This document shows positions 4,251 through 63,980 of a DNA stretch of 64,000 bases, piece by piece. The stretch spans positions 1 through 64,000 of the forward strand of contig CACMZO010000001.1 in NCBI GenBank assembly GCA_902618195.1, written 5' to 3'. The stretch's first letter is position 1; the number at the start of each line of letters is the position of its first letter. The notes beneath the pieces are model-generated. The model ran no database searches and was not told where the DNA came from. It was given only the letters and a program-made list of their open reading frames with translations. A program made the translations under genes and the position numbers. This DNA comes from an uncultured SAR116 cluster alpha proteobacterium. GTDB lineage: Bacteria > Pseudomonadota > Alphaproteobacteria > Puniceispirillales > Marisalimonadaceae.

Positions 4251-5747
4251 ATGTTTGAAAATTTAACAAATAAACTGGGCAATGTTTTTAATTCTCTTAA
4301 AAAGAGAGGCGCTTTAACGGAAAAAGACGTCGATGAAGCTTTAAGAGACGTAAGAGTGGCTCTTTTAGAAGCAGATGTGTCATTAGAAGTTGTTAAAGAC
4401 TTTATAATAAAGGTCAGAGAAAGAGCCGTTGGTCAAGAAGTATTAAAATCTGTAACTCCAGGTCAGCAAGTCGTTAAAATTGTTAATGATGTTTTAATTG
4501 ATGCTTTGGGAACAGCCAATTCTCCACTGGAGATAAATCACTCACCCCCAATTGTAATGTTATTGGTCGGGTTACAAGGTTCTGGTAAAACAACAACTGC
4601 TGGTAAATTAGCCCTTCATCTTAAAAATAAAGAAAAAAAGAAAGTTATGTTGGCCTCATTAGATATTTACAGACCTGCTGCTCGAGAACAATTAAGATTG
4701 TTAGGTGAACAAGCCGATGTTCTTGTTTTACCTGACAGCGACGGTGAAAGCCCTGAAAGTATTACTAAAAGAGCCCTTGCTTCCTCAAAAGTTCAAGGTG
4801 TTGATGTGTTAATTTTAGACACTGCAGGAAGAACCACTTTAGATAATATAATGATGACGGAAGCTAAAAACATTTTTAAACTTTCTAGCCCTTCTGAGAC
4901 TTTGCTAGTAGCAGACTCAATGACTGGACAAGATGCTGTAAACACAGCAAAGGCATTTTCAGAAATTGTAAATATAACTGGAGTGATTTTATCTAGAACC
5001 GATGGCGATGCAAGAGGTGGCGCGGCTTTATCTATGAGAGCAATAACTGGTAAACCAATTAAATTTATTGGTGTTTCAGAGAAGTTAGATGGTTTAGAAA
5101 CTTTTCATCCTGAGAGAGCGGCAGGAAGAATTCTAGATATGGGTGATGTAGTTTCTCTGGTTGAAAAGGCGCAAGAAACTATTGCTGAGGAAGAAGCAGA
5201 AGAGATGATGAAGCGATTATCTCAAGGTTCATTTGATATGAATGACATGTTAAAACAAATTGGCCAACTTAAAAAGTTAGGTGGACTAAGTGGTGTTATG
5301 TCAATGTTACCAGGTATAGGAAAGTTACAAAAACAAATGGAAGCTCATAATTTTGACGATAAAGTTATTGCAAAACAAGAAGCTATCATTTATTCAATGA
5401 CAAAAAAAGAAAGAACTAATGTTGGTTTGTTGAATGCTTCTAGAAGAAAAAGAATAGCTTCAGGTTCTGGTTCCAGTGTGCACGAGGTTAATAGATTGGT
5501 TAAACAACAACAAGACATGGCTAGAATGATGAAAAAAGTTGGAAAAGTTGGAGGAATGGGAGCTCTTAAAAATATGTTTTCGGGTTTAGGTGGAAACTCT
5601 GAAAGTAACATGCCCAATGGCATGCCTGGTTCAATTGAGGAAATGCAAAAGATGATGGGTAAGTTACCTATGGGTGGTGGTGCAAACAAATTTAGTGGAA
5701 TGGGATTGCCAGGTTTTTCTGGAAAGCCATCAAAAAGAATTAAATAA
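4251..5747 (+). CDS. ffh: Signal recognition particle protein Ffh
   Basis: Ffh is the SRP54-type GTPase that binds hydrophobic nascent signal sequences together with 4.5S RNA and delivers them to FtsY. The 498-residue protein has an N domain, a G domain with GLQGSGKTTT, DTAGR and SRTDGDARGG, and a methionine-rich M domain (about residue 310 to the end) containing MLPGIGKLQKQM and the RNA-binding SGSGSSVHEVNRL helix. The C terminus is a long Gly/Met-rich tail rich in GGMG and MPMGGG. It heads the classical ffh-rpsP-rimM-trmD-rplS order. The 4.5S RNA gene is not in this window. Confidence 0.96.
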   Translation: MFENLTNKLGNVFNSLKKRGALTEKDVDEALRDVRVALLEADVSLEVVKDFIIKVRERAVGQEVLKSVTPGQQVVKIVNDVLIDALGTANSPLEINHSPPIVMLLVGLQGSGKTTTAGKLALHLKNKEKKKVMLASLDIYRPAAREQLRLLGEQADVLVLPDSDGESPESITKRALASSKVQGVDVLILDTAGRTTLDNIMMTEAKNIFKLSSPSETLLVADSMTGQDAVNTAKAFSEIVNITGVILSRTDGDARGGAALSMRAITGKPIKFIGVSEKLDGLETFHPERAAGRILDMGDVVSLVEKAQETIAEEEAEEMMKRLSQGSFDMNDMLKQIGQLKKLGGLSGVMSMLPGIGKLQKQMEAHNFDDKVIAKQEAIIYSMTKKERTNVGLLNASRRKRIASGSGSSVHEVNRLVKQQQDMARMMKKVGKVGGMGALKNMFSGLGGNSESNMPNGMPGSIEEMQKMMGKLPMGGGANKFSGMGLPGFSGKPSKRIK

Positions 5748-5767
5748 ATTATAGAAAAGGAAAGTTA

Positions 5768-6160
5768 ATGGCATTAAAAATAAGATTATCAAGAGGTGGC
5801 GCAAAAAAGAAACCTTTTTATAGGATTGTAGTAGCAGAAACTACATCGCCAAGAGATGGTAAATTTGTTGAAAAAATTGGTTCTTATAATCCAATGGTAG
5901 ATCATGATAATAAAGAAAGATTAGTAATAGATGCTGAGAGAGTAAAATATTGGATATCAAAAGGTGCAAAGCCAACATTAAGAGTCAGCAAGTTAATTTC
6001 TAAAGATGGATTAGTTGATAAACCAATTATTAATGAGCAGCCTAAAAAAAGCGCTCCAGGGAAGAAACGTTTAGAAAGAGAAGCTGAAGAAGCCAAGACT
6101 GAGGCCCCTGCTGAAGAAGCTAAGACTGAGGCCCCTGCTGAAGAAGAAAAAAAATCATAG
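5768..6160 (+). CDS. rpsP: 30S ribosomal protein bS16
   Basis: bS16 is an assembly protein of the 30S subunit. The conserved part (MALKIRLSRGGAKKKPFYRIVV through about residue 85) is followed by a low-complexity tail, for 130 residues in total, against roughly 80-90 in many bacteria. The tail is first basic (KKSAPGKKRLERE) and then contains two copies of EEAKTEAPA encoded by a 27-base tandem duplication. AAAAGGAAAG just upstream is a good ribosome site. Alphaproteobacterial S16 proteins often carry tails, but a duplicated unit is less usual. Confidence 0.95.
   Translation: MALKIRLSRGGAKKKPFYRIVVAETTSPRDGKFVEKIGSYNPMVDHDNKERLVIDAERVKYWISKGAKPTLRVSKLISKDGLVDKPIINEQPKKSAPGKKRLEREAEEAKTEAPAEEAKTEAPAEEEKKS
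6086..6139 (+). repeat. 27-bp tandem duplication in the rpsP tail
   Basis: Two in-frame 27-base units (6086-6112 and 6113-6139) differ by a single C/T wobble base and encode EEAKTEAPA twice; a partial third unit (GAAGAAGAA) follows. The core GAGGCCCCTGCT is far richer in GC than the surroundings. The near identity of the units points to recent unequal duplication. Confidence 0.9.
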
Positions 6161-6166
6161 TGAAGA

Positions 6167-6673
6167 TTGTATAATAAGGATTTTATTTTAGTAGGATCAA
6201 TTGTTGGCCTTCACGGCCTAAAAGGCTATTTAAAAGTCAAAAGTTTTTTAGAAAAGCCAAAAGATATATTTAAGTTTGGTGAATATTTTATTGATAAGCT
6301 TTGTTTTAGCTCCATATCATTAAAGTTTAATAAAAAGTCCGTGTTTATTTGCGAGTTAGAAGGCATAAATTCTATCGAAGAGGCCAAAAAATTTGTTGAT
6401 AAAGATATTTTTATTTCTAGATTATCCTTACCTAAAACAGATAAAGATGAAATATATTTGAATGATTTAATAAGTTTCAATGTAGAATTAGAGTCTGGTC
6501 TATGTTTAGGTGAATTAGTAAATTTTTACGATTTTGGGGCTGGCCAAATAATTGGAGTGAAACAAGGTCATACAGAAATGATGCTACCTTTTTCTGACAA
6601 TTTTATTATAAATATAGATCAAGATTTAAAATTAATTACTTTATCTTCTAATATTAAAACATTAATAAATTAA
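6167..6673 (+). CDS. rimM: Ribosome maturation factor RimM
   Basis: RimM binds S19 and the 30S head and helps 16S rRNA maturation. The 168-residue protein has the N-terminal beta-barrel with VGSIVGLHGLKGYLKV near the start and a C-terminal PRC-barrel domain (LGELVNFYDFGAGQIIGV, MMLPF). It begins with TTG at 6167; the GTG at 6160 is out of frame and soon stops, and there is no ATG early enough. The TTG start with no clear Shine-Dalgarno sequence, six bases after rpsP, suggests low expression coupled to rpsP. trmD starts two bases after its stop. Confidence 0.9.
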   Translation: MYNKDFILVGSIVGLHGLKGYLKVKSFLEKPKDIFKFGEYFIDKLCFSSISLKFNKKSVFICELEGINSIEEAKKFVDKDIFISRLSLPKTDKDEIYLNDLISFNVELESGLCLGELVNFYDFGAGQIIGVKQGHTEMMLPFSDNFIINIDQDLKLITLSSNIKTLIN

Positions 6674-20647: not shown

Positions 20648-23545
20648 ATGTCAGATAAAAATTTAGATCAAACATTCCTGTCAGGCTCTAATTCCGTTTT
20701 TATAAATGATCTACTTAATAAGTGGGAAAATGACCCTAAGTCTGTTCCTGAAGAGTGGTCTAATTTGTTTAAAGAAATTGGATCTGAAATTGCGGACAAA
20801 GGTCCAAGTTGGGCAAAAGAGAATAATAGAGTGATAGGCGCTGTTGATGTAGAGGAATCTGTGAAAGCGGTTGCTCAAGGAGTGGCTGGAAAAGGAAAAA
20901 TTTCTGCATCCAATTTAAGATCAGCAACAACTGACTCTTTAAGAGCAATAATGTTAATAAGAGCTTATAGAATTAGAGGTCACCTGCTAGCTAATTTAGA
21001 TCCTTTAAAATTACATGAGCCTGACATTCACCCTGAGCTTGATCCTAAGACTTATGGTTTTAAAGAAGAAGATTGGGACCGACCAATTTTTATAGACAAT
21101 GTTTTAGGTATGGAGACTGCTTCTTTAAAACAAATAATGGATATTCTTAAGGAAACGTATTGTGGATCTATTGGTGTCGAATTTATGCATGTTCAAGATC
21201 CAGCGCAAAAAGCATGGATCCAAGAAAGAATTGAATCAATTAGAAATACTACTCAGTTTACAGATAATGGTAAAAAAGCAATTTTCGAACGTTTAGTAGG
21301 TGCTGAAACATTTGAACAATTTCTTCATAAAAAATATGCAGGCACAAAAAGATTTGGATTAGATGGCTCAGAATCAGTTGTACCAGCTATTGAGCAAATT
21401 TTAAAAAGAGGAAGTCAATTAGGTTTAAAAGAAGTTGTAATTGGCATGGCTCACAGAGGAAGATTAAATGTTTTATATAATGTATTAAATAAACCATTTA
21501 GAGCAATAATTTCAGAATTTTTAGGGAATCTTGCCAATCCTGAAGAAGCTGGTGGTTCTGGAGATGTAAAGTATCATATGGGTGCTTCCGCAGATAGAGA
21601 GTTTGATAATGAGAATGTTCATTTGTCTCTTCAAGCAAACCCATCTCACTTAGAAGTTGTTGCTCCTGTAGTTATTGGAAGAGTTCGTGCAAAACAACTT
21701 CAACATAATGACACAGAAGAAAGGGATTCTGTATTGGGGATAGTTTTACATGGTGATGCTGCGTTTGCAGGACAAGGCATAGTTGCTGAAACGTTTGATT
21801 TTTCAGGCTTAAGAGGTTATGAAACAGGCGGAACTATTCACGTTATCATCAATAACCAAATTGGCTTTACAACAAGTCCAAATTTTTCAAGGTCAAGTCC
21901 ATACTGTACGGATGTTGCCAAGATGGTGATGGCACCAATTTTTCATGTAAATGGAGACGATCCTGAGGCAGTTGTTCACGTGGCAAGAATTGCAACTGAA
22001 TTTAGACAAAAGTTCTCTTGTGATGTAGTTTTAGATGTAATTTGCTATAGAAGATTTGGTCATAATGAAGGTGATGAACCTGCGTTTACTCAACCTTCAA
22101 TGTATAAAAAAATAGCTCAGCACGAGAGTATTAGTAAAATTTATAGCAAAAAATTAATTAATGAAGGCACAATAACTAAGCAAGATGCAGATCAAGAATT
22201 AAAAAAACATAATGATTTTTTAGAAAAAGAATTTGAAGCTGGAAGCAGTTACAAACCAAATAAAGCTGACTGGTTAGATGGACAATGGTCAGGGTTGAAA
22301 GCAGCTCCAGATCGTGAACAAAGAAGAGGAGACACATCAGTTAAACTACAAAGATTAAAGGAAATTGGTTTATCAATGACAGAACTTCCTGAAGGATATG
22401 AGTTAAATAAAAAATTAGTTAGAATTGTTGAAAATAGAAGAAAATCAATAAATGAAGAAAAAAACATTGATTGGTCAACTGCAGAACATTTAGCTTTTGG
22501 CACACTTTTAGATGAAGGTCATCCAGTAAGATTATCAGGGCAAGATAGTTGTAGAGGCACCTTTTCTCAAAGACATGCTGTGTTTGTAGATCAAAATAAT
22601 GAAAACAGATATGTACCGCTTAACAATTTAAAAGAAAATCAACCTCAATTTGAAGTTATTGATTCACCTTTGTCAGAAGCTTCAGTATTAGGTTTTGAAT
22701 ATGGATATTCTCTGACAGAACCTGCAGCATTAGTCATGTGGGAAGCACAATTTGGTGACTTTGCTAATGGTGCTCAAGTAATAGTTGATCAGTTTATATC
22801 TAGTGGAGAAGCTAAATGGCTAAGAATGTCAGGTTTGGTTATGTTGCTACCTCATGGTTATGAGGGTCAAGGTCCGGAGCACTCTTCAGCTAGATTAGAG
22901 AGATATTTACAGCTTTGTGGTGAAGATAATATGCAAGTGTTAAACTGTAGTACACCAGCAAATTATTTCCATGCTCTTAGAAGACAGTTAAAAAGAGACT
23001 TTAGAAAACCATTAATTATAATGACACCTAAAAGTCTACTTAGACATAAATTGTGCGTTTCTAATTTATCAGATATGGCAGAAAATACATCATTTCACAG
23101 GATTATATTAGACCCTAACAAAACTCTAAAAGATAAAAATATTAATCGTGTAGTTATTTGCTCTGGTAAAATATTCTATCATCTTTATGAGGAAAGAGAA
23201 AAAAATAATATCACTGATGTTAAGTTATTAAGGTTAGAACAAATTTATCCCTTTCCAAGTAAAACATTAGAAAAGGAATTAGAAAAAACACCTAATGCAA
23301 AGATAATTTGGTGTCAAGAAGAGCCAAAAAACATGGGCTCCTGGTTTTTTGTAGATAGAAATATCGAAGATGTTTTAATTAAGATAAAGTCAAAGTTTTC
23401 AAGACCTGTTTACGTGGGTAGAGCAGAAGCAGCATCACCTGCAACAGGTTCACTCTCTAGACATCTAAAAGAGCAAGATAATATTGTTAAAGAATCATTA
23501 AATTTGATTAAACCAAATAAAAAAGAGATACGTGCTGCTGAATAG
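20648..23545 (+). CDS. sucA: 2-Oxoglutarate dehydrogenase E1 component
   Basis: SucA is the thiamine-diphosphate E1o enzyme that decarboxylates 2-oxoglutarate and succinylates the lipoyl group of SucB. The 965-residue protein has the N-terminal tail that contacts E2o (FLSGSNSVFINDLLNKWENDP), the active-site segment GMAHRGRLNVL, a TPP-binding region around HGDAAFAGQG with NNQIGFTTSP, and the C-terminal transketolase-like domain ending in VGRAEAASPATG. Length is normal, so the E1 partner looks ordinary although SucB next door is rearranged. Confidence 0.97.
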   Translation: MSDKNLDQTFLSGSNSVFINDLLNKWENDPKSVPEEWSNLFKEIGSEIADKGPSWAKENNRVIGAVDVEESVKAVAQGVAGKGKISASNLRSATTDSLRAIMLIRAYRIRGHLLANLDPLKLHEPDIHPELDPKTYGFKEEDWDRPIFIDNVLGMETASLKQIMDILKETYCGSIGVEFMHVQDPAQKAWIQERIESIRNTTQFTDNGKKAIFERLVGAETFEQFLHKKYAGTKRFGLDGSESVVPAIEQILKRGSQLGLKEVVIGMAHRGRLNVLYNVLNKPFRAIISEFLGNLANPEEAGGSGDVKYHMGASADREFDNENVHLSLQANPSHLEVVAPVVIGRVRAKQLQHNDTEERDSVLGIVLHGDAAFAGQGIVAETFDFSGLRGYETGGTIHVIINNQIGFTTSPNFSRSSPYCTDVAKMVMAPIFHVNGDDPEAVVHVARIATEFRQKFSCDVVLDVICYRRFGHNEGDEPAFTQPSMYKKIAQHESISKIYSKKLINEGTITKQDADQELKKHNDFLEKEFEAGSSYKPNKADWLDGQWSGLKAAPDREQRRGDTSVKLQRLKEIGLSMTELPEGYELNKKLVRIVENRRKSINEEKNIDWSTAEHLAFGTLLDEGHPVRLSGQDSCRGTFSQRHAVFVDQNNENRYVPLNNLKENQPQFEVIDSPLSEASVLGFEYGYSLTEPAALVMWEAQFGDFANGAQVIVDQFISSGEAKWLRMSGLVMLLPHGYEGQGPEHSSARLERYLQLCGEDNMQVLNCSTPANYFHALRRQLKRDFRKPLIIMTPKSLLRHKLCVSNLSDMAENTSFHRIILDPNKTLKDKNINRVVICSGKIFYHLYEEREKNNITDVKLLRLEQIYPFPSKTLEKELEKTPNAKIIWCQEEPKNMGSWFFVDRNIEDVLIKIKSKFSRPVYVGRAEAASPATGSLSRHLKEQDNIVKESLNLIKPNKKEIRAAE

Positions 23546-23557
23546 AGTTTAATTTTT

Positions 23558-24853
23558 ATGAACAATATGAATGATAAAAATTTTGATTTAGTTATGCCTG
23601 CAGCTAAAAAGTTAATCTTAGAAAATGATATAGATGCAAATATCATGCAAGGTACTGGAAAAGACGGTAGAATAACTAAAGGTGATGTTTTGTTATTCTT
23701 AAAATCAAATGGTTCATTACAAAAAACAACAGATAACAAATATCAAGAAGAAAATCTTAAAATTAATGAAAATAGAAAGGGATCTATAATGGATATAATT
23801 GTTCCTACACTTGGCGAGTCAATAGTAGAAGCTACAGTATCAAAATGGCTAAAAAATGAAGGGGAATATGTTGAAGTTGATGAACCTGTAGTTGAATTAG
23901 AAACTGATAAAGTAACACTTGAAGTTCCTGCGCCAATCTCAGGATTAATTGGATCTATAATTGCTGCAGAAGGTGAAACGGTTGAAGTTGGGCAGAATAT
24001 AGGAGCTCTTGATCCAAATGGAAAAAAATCATCAGATGATAAACCAAAGGCTAAAGAAAATAATGATAAAGAAGAAAAACAATTAGAAACTAAAAATACA
24101 AAAACTTCGTCTCCAGAAACAGATCTTAAAAAAGATGATGCTGTGTTACCAAGTAACCAAGAAGAAATTGTTCCAATGTCTAGATTAAGGCAAGCAATTG
24201 CTAATAGATTAAAATCAGCACAAAACACAGCAGCAATTTTAACTACCTATAATGAAGTTGATATGACAGCATTAATGAAAATAAGATCAACATACCAGCC
24301 TAATTTTGAGAAAAAATTTGGAATAAAACTTGGATATATGAGTTTTTTTGTAAAGGCATGTATTAATGCATTAAAAGTTTATCCAGCTGTTAATGCAGAG
24401 ATAAGAGATAATAATATTGTATATAAAAATTATTATAATATAGGTGTTGCAGTTGGAACTCCTGAAGGATTAGTTGTTCCAGTTTTAAAAAATGCAGAGA
24501 ATATGGACTTTCCAGAAATTGAAAAAACAATTGTAAATTTTGGAAAACAAGCAAGAGAAGGTAATTTAACCATTCAAGACATGTCAAATGGTACATTTAC
24601 TATCTCTAATGGAGGTGTTTACGGTTCGATGTTATCATCACCGATTCTTAACCCACCACAATCTGGAATTCTTGGAATGCATAATATTCAAAAAAGAGCA
24701 GTTGTCATAGATGATAAAGTTGAAATTAGGTCTATGATGTATTTGGCTTTATCTTATGACCACAGGATTATAGATGGAAGAGAGGCTGTCTCTTTCTTAG
24801 TAAATGTTAAAGAGAATCTTGAAGATCCTCAACGAATGCTTATTGGAGTATAA
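23558..24853 (+). CDS. sucB: Dihydrolipoyl succinyltransferase E2, permuted domains
   Basis: SucB is the core acyltransferase of the 2-oxoglutarate dehydrogenase complex. The 431 residues read as: an E3/E1-binding (PSBD) domain at 12-49 ([26 protein letters not shown]), a linker, a lipoyl domain at 78-152 with the lipoylated K118 in [12 protein letters not shown], a charged linker at 154-202, and the catalytic domain at 203-431 with DHRIIDG (H402) and the usual ending. The standard order is lipoyl-PSBD-catalytic; here the PSBD comes first, and the normal PSBD position is only low-complexity linker. Met78 begins the lipoyl domain exactly as in ordinary SucB and has AAAGGG seven bases before it, so a second, PSBD-less product from 23789 is possible. 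No frameshift is visible. Confidence 0.93.
23776..23791 (+). promoter_or_regulatory. Internal ribosome site and start within sucB
   Basis: AAAGGG at 23776-23781 stands seven bases before an in-frame ATG at 23789-23791. That ATG opens the lipoyl domain ([12 protein letters not shown]), where most SucB proteins begin. It may be the old start of sucB, still able to work. Confidence 0.45.
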
Positions 24854-24858
24854 AAATC

Positions 24859-26271
24859 ATGTCGGAAAAAAAATATGATTTAGTTGTAATTGGAGCTGGT
24901 CCTGGTGGATATGTTGCTTCTATTGTTGCAGCACAAAAGGGAATGAAAGTTGCAAATATTGAAAAGAGAGAAACATTAGGAGGGACATGCCTAAATGTAG
25001 GGTGTATTCCATCTAAAGCTTTACTTCATGCATCAGAACAATATGAAAATAATGTAAAAAACAACGCTAATTTATCATGGGGAATAAAAACATCTGACGT
25101 AAGCATTGATGTTCAACAATTAATGAAAAAAAAATCAACTATCGTTGATGAATTAACAAAAGGTATTAATTTTCTATTTAGTAAAAATAAAATTGATAAA
25201 TATGTAGGTGAAGCAACTTTAGTTAACAAAAATGAAATTCAGATTAATGGAAAAGGTAAGATTGAAAAAATATTTGCTGAGAAAATTATCATTGCTACTG
25301 GTTCTGAGCCTTCAAATTTAAATAATATTAAAATTGATGAACAAAAAATTGTTACTTCAACAGGCGCTTTGGAATTAAAGTCTGTTCCAAAAAAAGTAAT
25401 TGTGATAGGAGCTGGAGTAATAGGATTAGAACTAGGCACTGTATGGAGAAGATTAGGTTCAGAAGTTGAGGTGATTGAATTCTTGCCAAGAGTTTTAAAC
25501 GGTATGGATACTGAAGTATCAGAAAAATTTCACAAAATTCTTCTGCAACAAGGCTTAAAATTTAAATTGGAACATTCTGTAGAAAAGACATCTTTAATCA
25601 AAGATAAAGTACATGTTGAAATTAAAGACCTTAAAACTTCAAAAATAGATACAATAGAGGCAGATATCGTATTAGTTGCGGTTGGAAGAAGGCCTAACAC
25701 AGATAATTTAGGTTTAGATAAAATAGGTGTAAAAGTGGATGAAAGAGGTTTTGTTGAAACAGATGATAATTTTAAAACATCTGTAGATAATATTTATGCT
25801 ATTGGAGATGTAATTAAAGGTCCTATGTTAGCTCACAAAGCAGAAGAAGATGGTGTTGCATTAGTTGAATTAATTAATAAAGAAGCAGGTCATGTCGACT
25901 ACAATCTCGTTCCAAATATTATTTATACAGCTCCCGAAGTAGCATCAATAGGTAAAACAGAAGATGATCTAAAACAAGAAGAGATTTCATATAAAAAAGG
26001 AGTTTTTCCATTTACTGCGAACAGCAGAGCAAAAGCGATTGGTCATACAGAGGGATTTGTAAAAATTTTATCAGATAAAGAAACGGATAAAATTTTAGGT
26101 GCACATATAATAGGACATGAAGCAGGAACAATTATACACGAATTGAGTGTTGCGATGGGCTTTGGTGCTTCTTCAGAAGATGTAGCACGAATATGTCATG
26201 GTCATCCTACAGTCAATGAGGCAATAAAAGAAGCAGCTTTGGCAACCTTTTCGAAAGCAATACATTCTTAA
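24859..26271 (+). CDS. lpdA: Dihydrolipoyl dehydrogenase (E3)
   Basis: Lpd reoxidises the dihydrolipoyl groups of E2 with NAD. The 470-residue protein has the FAD motif VVIGAGPGGYVA, the redox disulfide C44/C49 in GGTCLNVGCIPSKALL, the NAD motif VIGAGVIGLELG, and the catalytic His-Glu pair in CHGHPTVNEA. It starts five bases after sucB, so it is the E3 of this complex and must recognise the displaced binding domain. Its stop codon overlaps the stop of the convergent SMR gene. Confidence 0.96.
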   Translation: MSEKKYDLVVIGAGPGGYVASIVAAQKGMKVANIEKRETLGGTCLNVGCIPSKALLHASEQYENNVKNNANLSWGIKTSDVSIDVQQLMKKKSTIVDELTKGINFLFSKNKIDKYVGEATLVNKNEIQINGKGKIEKIFAEKIIIATGSEPSNLNNIKIDEQKIVTSTGALELKSVPKKVIVIGAGVIGLELGTVWRRLGSEVEVIEFLPRVLNGMDTEVSEKFHKILLQQGLKFKLEHSVEKTSLIKDKVHVEIKDLKTSKIDTIEADIVLVAVGRRPNTDNLGLDKIGVKVDERGFVETDDNFKTSVDNIYAIGDVIKGPMLAHKAEEDGVALVELINKEAGHVDYNLVPNIIYTAPEVASIGKTEDDLKQEEISYKKGVFPFTANSRAKAIGHTEGFVKILSDKETDKILGAHIIGHEAGTIIHELSVAMGFGASSEDVARICHGHPTVNEAIKEAALATFSKAIHS

Positions 26272-61937: not shown

Positions 61938-63980
61938 TTAGTTTAATCTTTTAAATCCAGAAATTTTTACTGGGCCATCCAAAATATCATTAACATTTTC
62001 ACTTTCTTGAACAGTTGCAAGCTTTTTAAAGATCTTATCAAGCTTTTCATAATATTTATTAAACATTCCATCTGTATGAGTAGTAGCAACATATATACTA
62101 TTAGATGCTAATATTCCTACTTTTAACATCTCTTGAGTTAAGTATGTTTTAAACACTAAATCATTAACGTTTAAAAAGTTAAATGTTGATAAGGCTGGAA
62201 GTCCTAAAATTTCAATTTTTAAATTATGTTTCTTTGAAAGTTCTCTCCATATTTTTCTAATTTGTTTGCCTTTTTTTTCAATTATTTCCCATGATTTAGT
62301 TTTTTCCATAATATCTAAAGTTTTTAAAGCTGCTGTTGGACCTATTCTTTCAGTCCAAAACGTACTGCTAATAAAGGTTTCTTGAGCGACGTTCATAACA
62401 TCTTTTTTTCCTAGAATTGCTGTAATTGCGTAACCATTTCCAAGCGCTTTACCAAGAATTAAAATATCTGGATTTATTTTATATTTTAAATGGAGTCCAC
62501 CGAAGTTAGATCTAAATCCAGAAGTACACTCGTCAAAAATTAATAGTATGTTATTTTTATTTACTAATTTACTTAATTTTTCTAAAAAAACTTCAGTAGG
62601 AGGAAAATTTCTAAAGATTTCCATTTTTATAATTTTAATTTTTTCTTTATAGACTAAGTTCTCTAATTCCTCATAATTGTTAAAATTAAACGGAAAAATT
62701 GTTTCTTCCAAATTTCTTGGGACACCTTTAGTGTTTAACCCTGGCAACAAATGTTCGTCAAGATTTTTGTTGGATGACAAGTTTGCTGCTAAGTACCAAT
62801 CGTGCCAACCATGATAACCACAAATAGCAATTTTATCCTTCCCAGTAAAAGCTCTTGCAATTCTTACAGCTATAGCATTAGCTTCTCCTCCAGTTCTCGC
62901 ATATTTAACCATATCTGCCCATGGATGTAATTTAATTAATTTTTCTGCTAAATAAACTTCTTCTGGGCAATTAAATGTAGACATATTACCATTCTGAATT
63001 GTTTGTTTAACTGAAGCATCAACCTCATCATTGTTATATCCAAGGATATTAGTACCAATTCCCATAATGGACATATCTATGTATTTTTTCCCTTCTAAAT
63101 CCCATATCTGGCAACCTTTAGCTTTACTAAAGTATGATGGCCAAAAATTTGGTAAAAACATCTCTGGGTTTTTAGAGAGTAAAGAATTTCCATTAGGTAT
63201 AATTTTTCTGGCTCTTGTCCATAATTTTTGTCCTTCAGACATTATTTCCCCTTCATTTCTTTTTATATGTATATTTTCATTAAACAAATGTGGTTTTTTT
63301 TTCATTAGTTTTAATATATCTTGCATTTTAAAATTTAAATTTGGGTAAAAATTTTTATAAACAGAAGATATTACATTGAAATCTTCTTGTTCGTCTAATG
63401 TCCACCTTAATTTTGAAAAGTTTTCTTTATTATAAAGATTAGCTTTGGTAAAAAAATCGCTCTCTCTTATAAATTTTGTAACATGTTCACGATTTTTCTC
63501 ATTTTTGTTTTTTAAATATGATTTCTTTAAACAATCTAATTTTACAACCTCTACATCTAAACCGTCTGGGTATGTAGGTGGGTTTATATTTGAGCAATAA
63601 TCAACTTCTTTTTGAACAAATAATTTGACTGTTTTGTCAATTATTTCTGGATCAATAAGTGGGCAATCACCTGTTATTCTAATTATTGTTTTCCCATTAT
63701 ATTTCTCTGCACAATTGATATACCTTAATAAAACATTTTTTTCAGATCCTCTAAATATTTTGTAATTATACGATTTAACAGTATCAGATAAAATATCATC
63801 TAGAGGATTAGTTGATGTGGCTAAAACAATTTCATCTACAAATTTAGCTTTTTTTACTCTATTTAACAAATGTATTATGTTAGGAATATTTCTAATTTTT
63901 TTTAGCACTTTTCCAGGAAATCTTAAAGAATTCATCCTAGCTTGTATAATTGCTATTCTCAGGTTATCAACTTTAGTCAT
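61938..63980 (-). CDS. Cytidylyltransferase-class III aminotransferase fusion
   Basis: The 680-residue protein joins two enzymes. Residues 1 to about 240 are a SpsF/NeuA-type sugar nucleotidyltransferase (IAIIQARMNSLRFPGKVL, LATSTNPLDD, RITGDCPLIDPEIID). Residues 247-680 are a class III aminotransferase like glutamate-1-semialdehyde aminomutase relatives (ARTGGEANAIA, D483 in LIFDECTSGFR, PLP lysine K511 in LGKALGNGYAI). M247 begins the aminotransferase in the family manner and has AAGGGG five bases before it, so that half may also be made alone. A role in making an aminated CMP-sugar for surface glycans is likely. Confidence 0.88.
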   Translation of the reverse strand: MTKVDNLRIAIIQARMNSLRFPGKVLKKIRNIPNIIHLLNRVKKAKFVDEIVLATSTNPLDDILSDTVKSYNYKIFRGSEKNVLLRYINCAEKYNGKTIIRITGDCPLIDPEIIDKTVKLFVQKEVDYCSNINPPTYPDGLDVEVVKLDCLKKSYLKNKNEKNREHVTKFIRESDFFTKANLYNKENFSKLRWTLDEQEDFNVISSVYKNFYPNLNFKMQDILKLMKKKPHLFNENIHIKRNEGEIMSEGQKLWTRARKIIPNGNSLLSKNPEMFLPNFWPSYFSKAKGCQIWDLEGKKYIDMSIMGIGTNILGYNNDEVDASVKQTIQNGNMSTFNCPEEVYLAEKLIKLHPWADMVKYARTGGEANAIAVRIARAFTGKDKIAICGYHGWHDWYLAANLSSNKNLDEHLLPGLNTKGVPRNLEETIFPFNFNNYEELENLVYKEKIKIIKMEIFRNFPPTEVFLEKLSKLVNKNNILLIFDECTSGFRSNFGGLHLKYKINPDILILGKALGNGYAITAILGKKDVMNVAQETFISSTFWTERIGPTAALKTLDIMEKTKSWEIIEKKGKQIRKIWRELSKKHNLKIEILGLPALSTFNFLNVNDLVFKTYLTQEMLKVGILASNSIYVATTHTDGMFNKYYEKLDKIFKKLATVQESENVNDILDGPVKISGFKRLN
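63240..63253 (-). promoter_or_regulatory. Internal ribosome site and start in the fusion gene
   Basis: On the minus strand AAGGGG (63253-63248) stands five bases before an in-frame ATG (63242-63240) that opens the aminotransferase part. It is a better ribosome site than most in this window and may be the former gene start. Confidence 0.45.

Follow-up and report, generated by a model that had tools for sequence, protein, structure and literature searches.

Comparison with described systems

The E2 subunit of the 2-oxoglutarate dehydrogenase complex (E2o, encoded by sucB in bacteria) has the standard order lipoyl domain, peripheral-subunit-binding domain (PSBD), catalytic domain. Bacterial SucB forms a 24-subunit core and binds E3. 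E2 domain order underlies the swinging-arm picture, in which E3 stays close to the core, with the lipoyl domain at the tip of the arm. Here, we analyzed a sucB gene departing from this order, located on a 64,000-nucleotide stretch of DNA from an uncultured SAR116 cluster alphaproteobacterium (NCBI GenBank assembly GCA_902618195.1, contig CACMZO010000001.1, positions 1 to 64,000 of the forward strand), in the following called the window. Its frame encodes a full-length E2o core subunit of inverted domain order, and a conserved internal ATG preceded by AAGG probably points to a second product devoid of the PSBD.

Compared with bacterial SucB/E2o (PRK05704, TIGR01347), the window protein shares the three domains, the catalytic motif, the sucA-sucB-lpd gene order and scores above the family cut-offs, but differs in carrying the PSBD first, in a lipoyl-catalytic linker devoid of a PSBD and in the conserved internal start. 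In eukaryotes, E2o lacks a PSBD and MRPS36 has been proposed as adaptor for E3 (PMC9974300). The short chain proposed below would likewise consist of lipoyl and catalytic domains, with E3 held otherwise; whereas MRPS36 is a separate adaptor protein, the E3-binding domain of the window lies within the sucB frame, and an N-terminally longer form of the same gene product would take over the adaptor role. Eukaryotic pyruvate dehydrogenase (PDH) cores mix E2 with the E3-binding protein (E3BP, protein X), a minority of subunits thereby holding E3 (PMC8146983). A comparable mixing is proposed for the window, where, in contrast to E3BP, the long chain retains the whole catalytic domain and would share its gene with the short chain. 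A third parallel are the N-terminal proteoform pairs of Salmonella, among which 20 truncations and 6 extensions use an alternative in-frame start with a stronger Shine-Dalgarno (SD)-like context than that of the annotated start (PMC11005335). The window gene likewise has an alternative in-frame start of stronger SD-like context, conserved in relatives; the Salmonella pairs were shown by ribosome profiling and, as far as covered here, include no E2 protein, whereas the window pair is predicted from sequence.

Neither a PSBD ahead of a lipoyl domain nor a second sucB start was found described among the titles listed from the literature covered (titles and abstract openings, most subscription journals being outside). 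As a stable natural inversion present in all four genera of one ocean SAR116 family, the permuted SucB tests the importance of E2 domain order, and the internal start suggests a simple route to a mixed core and a set amount of E3, for which eukaryotic complexes use separate proteins.

Domain order of the window SucB

The gene forms a single open frame with the following parts:

23558..24853, plus strand: long sucB frame, PSBD - lipoyl domain - catalytic domain, 431 aa
23591..23692, plus strand: N-terminal E3_binding domain (PSBD), residues 12-45; Pfam PF02817, 43.8 bits, cut-off 23.7
23795..24004, plus strand: lipoyl domain, residues 80-149; Pfam PF00364 (Biotin_lipoyl), 65.1 bits
24014..24154, plus strand: charged linker in the usual place of the PSBD, residues 153-199, without E3_binding match
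24155..24841, plus strand: catalytic succinyltransferase domain with YDHRIIDG, residues 200-428; Pfam PF00198 (2-oxoacid_dh), 274.4 bits

A preliminary description of this DNA had placed a PSBD at residues 12-49 and the lipoyl domain behind it (78-152), with mere charged linker at 154-202 and a continuous, unbroken frame, all of which was borne out. E3_binding, Biotin_lipoyl and 2-oxoacid_dh each gave exactly one Pfam match in the protein, and no E3_binding match was obtained between the lipoyl and catalytic domains. K118, which we take to be the lipoyl lysine, is unchanged across 30 aligned sequences. The curated NCBIfam cut-offs for SucB are exceeded (PRK05704, 544 vs 449; TIGR01347, 489.6 vs 378.65). 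All three domains are thus present, and since the PSBD precedes the lipoyl domain, the protein is classed as a variant rather than a standard member of SucB.

An AlphaFold model built on a 30-row alignment agrees with this arrangement (a single-sequence model, with a predicted local distance difference test score (pLDDT) of 31.7, was left unused). It shows the PSBD helices at residues 14-22 and 41-50 (pLDDT blocks of about 80-81), and a beta-rich lipoyl fold at 78-152 (about 80-82). Residues 158-198 are disordered (below 50), and most of the catalytic domain is modelled with confidence. Among the matches listed by a structure search were E2 catalytic domains as well as whole E2 models.

Two probable starts in one gene

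The window belongs to a SAR116 family (f1) of 58 genomes including its own, within an order of 136 genomes and four families (f1-f4). Start sites were counted in 38 distinct f1 genes of 39 complete ones (40 loci, L160 and L163 repeating genomes), with L012, at a contig end, and G039 excluded. Three elements are relevant:

23558..23560, plus strand: first start codon, long form; no SD-like tetramer upstream
23777..23780, plus strand: AAGG, SD-like, 8 bases ahead of the internal ATG; at -16..-6 in 38/38 genes
23789..23791, plus strand: Met78, an in-frame ATG inside the gene that probably starts a short form of 354 aa; ATG in 38/38 genes

Met78 stands at the beginning of the lipoyl part and aligns with the start codon of normal sucB genes, and in the window a GAAAGG ends 8 bases ahead of it. 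SD-like tetramers were defined as AAGG, AGGA, GGAG or GAGG at -16..-6 of an ATG. Ten control methionine positions, kept in at least 37 of the 38 genes, had such a tetramer in 0 (six positions), 1 (three) or 6 (one) of 38 genes, and the background within the window amounts to 35 of 383 internal methionine codons. All 38 genes thus combine a conserved in-frame internal start with an SD-like sequence, the pattern of a dual-start gene.

Codon usage at the site gives the same picture. All 37 genes that encode lysine at codon -4 of Met78 use AAG for it, compared with 313 AAG vs 1232 AAA among f1 sucB lysine codons overall (41 loci, including two repeats and one cut gene) and an AAG share of at most 71% in each of the other 15 lysine columns. 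The sole exception at -4 is L014, with AGG, in which AAGG is retained in a shifted phase and its distance from the ATG is one base larger. The residues encoded at the AAGG site vary (RKG, RKD, GKE, RKV, KRD), the bases remaining constant. Between the window's genus g1 and the g3/g4 set, codon identity at positions with the same residue is 0.503, compared with 0.508 expected at saturation, i.e., under independent codon choice. With synonymous sites saturated and ATG plus AAGG still found in 38/38 genes, it is selection, not mere inheritance, that keeps the signal.

At the first start, an SD-like tetramer is present in 1/38 genes. The distance from the upstream stop codon to the first ATG is 8-13 bases in 38/38 genes (12 bases from the sucA stop in the window), which fits translational coupling; the first start is perhaps coupled to sucA in this way.

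Source and selection of the relocated PSBD

To assign the PSBD type, we compared a SucB model made from 20 normal PSBDs with a PDH model made from 11 distinct PDH PSBDs (11 of 14 loci). On the SucB model, each of the 23 distinct permuted PSBDs, including that of L042 from outside the family (see below), scored higher (41.1-63.3 bits) than on the PDH model (15.2-30.7 bits). The preference amounts to at least 22 bits, or to at least 19.8 bits when both models were of equal size (11 sequences, three draws). PDH E2 was thereby ruled out as the source, and the domain most probably stems from its usual position in sucB.

In six f1 genomes of 88-100% completeness, neither a second E2o nor an extra PSBD elsewhere was found, nor a core subunit of the E3BP type encoded by a gene of its own. 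In five of them, PSBDs and E2 catalytic domains number exactly two each, one of SucB and one of PDH E2; the sixth, G041, shows the PSBD and E2 catalytic domain of SucB only. As no PSBD was found besides the relocated one and that of PDH E2, the relocated PSBD must serve E3 of the complex, if any PSBD does.

The ratio of nonsynonymous to synonymous substitution rates (dN/dS) was calculated from 80 of 166 eligible pairs of moderate distance, which are not independent of each other; pairs lacking a usable dS were skipped. As a ratio of means, it amounts to about 0.13 for the PSBD (residues 9-48, 76 usable pairs). The two linkers have higher values of 0.45 and 0.43 (69 and 78 pairs), the lipoyl and catalytic domains lower ones of 0.05 and 0.024 (80 pairs each). 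Judged by these rates, the PSBD is kept by selection as a protein and the long form is maintained.

One subgroup of genus g4 (L030, which is the L163 genome, L161, L162, L165 and L166) carries the PSBD loop STGVNNR in place of a GTGKDGR-like one, which may reflect altered E3 binding.

A proposed mixed core and its alternatives

We propose that a single gene yields an E3-binding long chain and a lipoyl-catalytic short chain, mixed in one core, and assign this reading a probability of roughly 70%. In an ancestor of one SAR116 family, the PSBD of sucB itself would have been placed in frame upstream of the old start codon and lost from the stretch that joins the lipoyl to the catalytic domain, the old start and its ribosome-binding site being retained. 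Ribosomes finishing sucA would then initiate at the first ATG and make the long chain (PSBD-lipoyl-catalytic, 431 aa), others at Met78 and make the short chain (lipoyl-catalytic, 354 aa). Mixing of both is expected because they have the core-building catalytic domain in common. Since the internal start would give a PSBD-less product, E3 is probably carried by part of the chains only: the long ones would hold it, presumably via binding of the PSBD to Lpd, at the outer arm tip, every chain would have a lipoyl domain, and the ratio of long to short chains would fix the E3 load of the core. The preliminary description had likewise put E3 at the free end of the arm; this part stands as what the domain order suggests, while its assumption of a single product missed the internal start. 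We consider the arrangement as a whole, i.e., a relocated PSBD upstream of a retained ancestral start, with two starts setting the E3 dose of a mixed core and E3 at the swinging-arm tip, fairly probable. It would achieve with one gene what eukaryotes do with E2 and either E3BP or MRPS36.

Several observations weigh against this proposal. The internal start region (45 bases) is folded, on average, at least as much as 73% of gene positions, unlike the weakly folded first start, for which the figure is 22%; in the window itself, folding is weak at both starts (-4.7 and -2.3 kcal/mol) and does not surpass that of shuffled sequences. Of 48 window open reading frames (ORFs; taken from their first ATG and at least 220 aa long, a few perhaps being spurious or starting elsewhere), just 11 are preceded by an SD-like tetramer, and its absence at the first start is therefore no sign of weak starting. 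In L042, the lipoyl part begins without a start codon, the nearest in-frame ATG lying 10 codons upstream and without an SD sequence, so that a permuted protein is apparently able to work without a short form. Furthermore, at the PSBD position occupied by Arg or Lys in 17/20 distinct normal SucB PSBDs, a main contact with E3 in the Bacillus complex, 28 of the 38 f1 genes encode Ala, 9 Lys and 1 Phe. E3 binding may therefore be altered. Recruitment of E3 has been ascribed to charged side chains of helix 1 (PMC9974300), so that the mode of binding may differ in the family.

The alternative that survives best, although we consider it unlikely, is that the long chain alone is made, every subunit tip carrying a PSBD, with internal ATG and AAGG being ancestral leftovers or serving another use, e.g., a ribosome pause between domains. 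The permuted L042 lacking an internal start and an internal start region that is not especially open are in line with it. However, leftovers would have decayed over the saturated distance between g1 and g3/g4, across which both elements persist, and a pause site would presumably need no ATG at that spacing.

Still more doubtful is a scenario in which the short chain does the work of E2o, while the PSBD part of the long chain has given up E3 recruitment for another binding partner or a regulatory role. The Ala or Phe in 29/38 genes at the usual Arg/Lys position, together with the STGVNNR loop of the g4 subgroup, speak for it. On the other hand, all 23 permuted PSBDs including L042 still reach 41-63 bits on the model of normal SucB PSBDs, the domain evolves at a dN/dS of 0.13, and no other PSBD except that of PDH E2 was found in the six f1 genomes.

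An assembly or binning artefact fusing a PSBD fragment to sucB, in favor of which nothing was found, has a negligible probability and was ruled out, because 39 complete f1 genes from different genomes share the same order at the same place.

Distribution and single origin of the permuted order

A match to the window protein was obtained in 55 of the 58 f1 genomes. Among the matches listed, those of 39 of the 136 genomes of the order begin at positions 1-5 of the N-terminal profile A1 and run through to its last position. All 39 permuted sucB genes belong to f1, with its four genera represented, which answers the search of related genomes for the same order in the affirmative. In three further f1 genomes sucB is cut by a contig end, and in 16 no SucB match was found, all but one of these being less than 90% complete. 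Nine of the 39 genes, among them that of the window, belong to genus g1 and show 95-100% identity with the window protein; the remainder are about 60-67% identical. Nine named records share this 95-100% identity, eight labelled SAR116 and one Alphaproteobacteria.

In families f2, f3 and f4, the permuted order is absent among the matches listed: 67 of 78 genomes gave a SucB-like match, all starting at profile position 53 or later, i.e., in the linker or lipoyl part, and the other 11 gave none. Nine sucB genes of these families, read individually, have the normal order, and the intermediate with two PSBDs that had been sought in related genomes was not seen among them. In a class sample (385 genomes, 339 matching) and a phylum sample (398 genomes, 365 matching), the permuted gene was present in the query genome only, among the matches listed; apart from the query genome, listed matches starting at profile position 48 or earlier cross stop codons. 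A permuted E2 with a strongly divergent linker might be split, and hence missed, in such profile searches.

In a tree of 35 rows (37 were chosen; L143 and L146 were lost to a motif filter, likewise from the SucB alignment), the 14 permuted rows, i.e., 13 from f1 and L042, form one clade with a support of 97/91. L042 (record PBAE01000016.1, labelled Woeseiaceae SP56, 5001-6335) is nested within this clade beside genus g1 on a long branch (support 96/86) and is the only permuted case among the matches listed for 101 genomes of the family of its genome. It may have arrived by horizontal transfer, or its contig may be misplaced (misbinned). That contig also carries an ORF resembling a glutamate-cysteine ligase.

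As a separate observation, L142 (genome G270), a 526-aa ORF on the minus strand, is a SucB with two tandem lipoyl domains and a normally placed PSBD.

Neighboring genes

In the window, sucB adjoins two genes named from their sequence, a neighborhood typical of sucB:

20648..23545, plus strand: sucA (E1o), directly upstream of sucB
24859..26271, plus strand: lpd (E3), directly downstream of sucB, presumed partner of the PSBD; relatives in the PDB are mostly dihydrolipoyl dehydrogenases

The genes ahead of sucB presumably encode malate dehydrogenase, sucC, sucD and sucA, with lpd following it. Far downstream, at 61938-63980 on the minus strand, the window holds one 680-aa frame, which, judged from its motifs, seems to join a cytidylyltransferase-like and a glutamate-1-semialdehyde-aminotransferase-like part.
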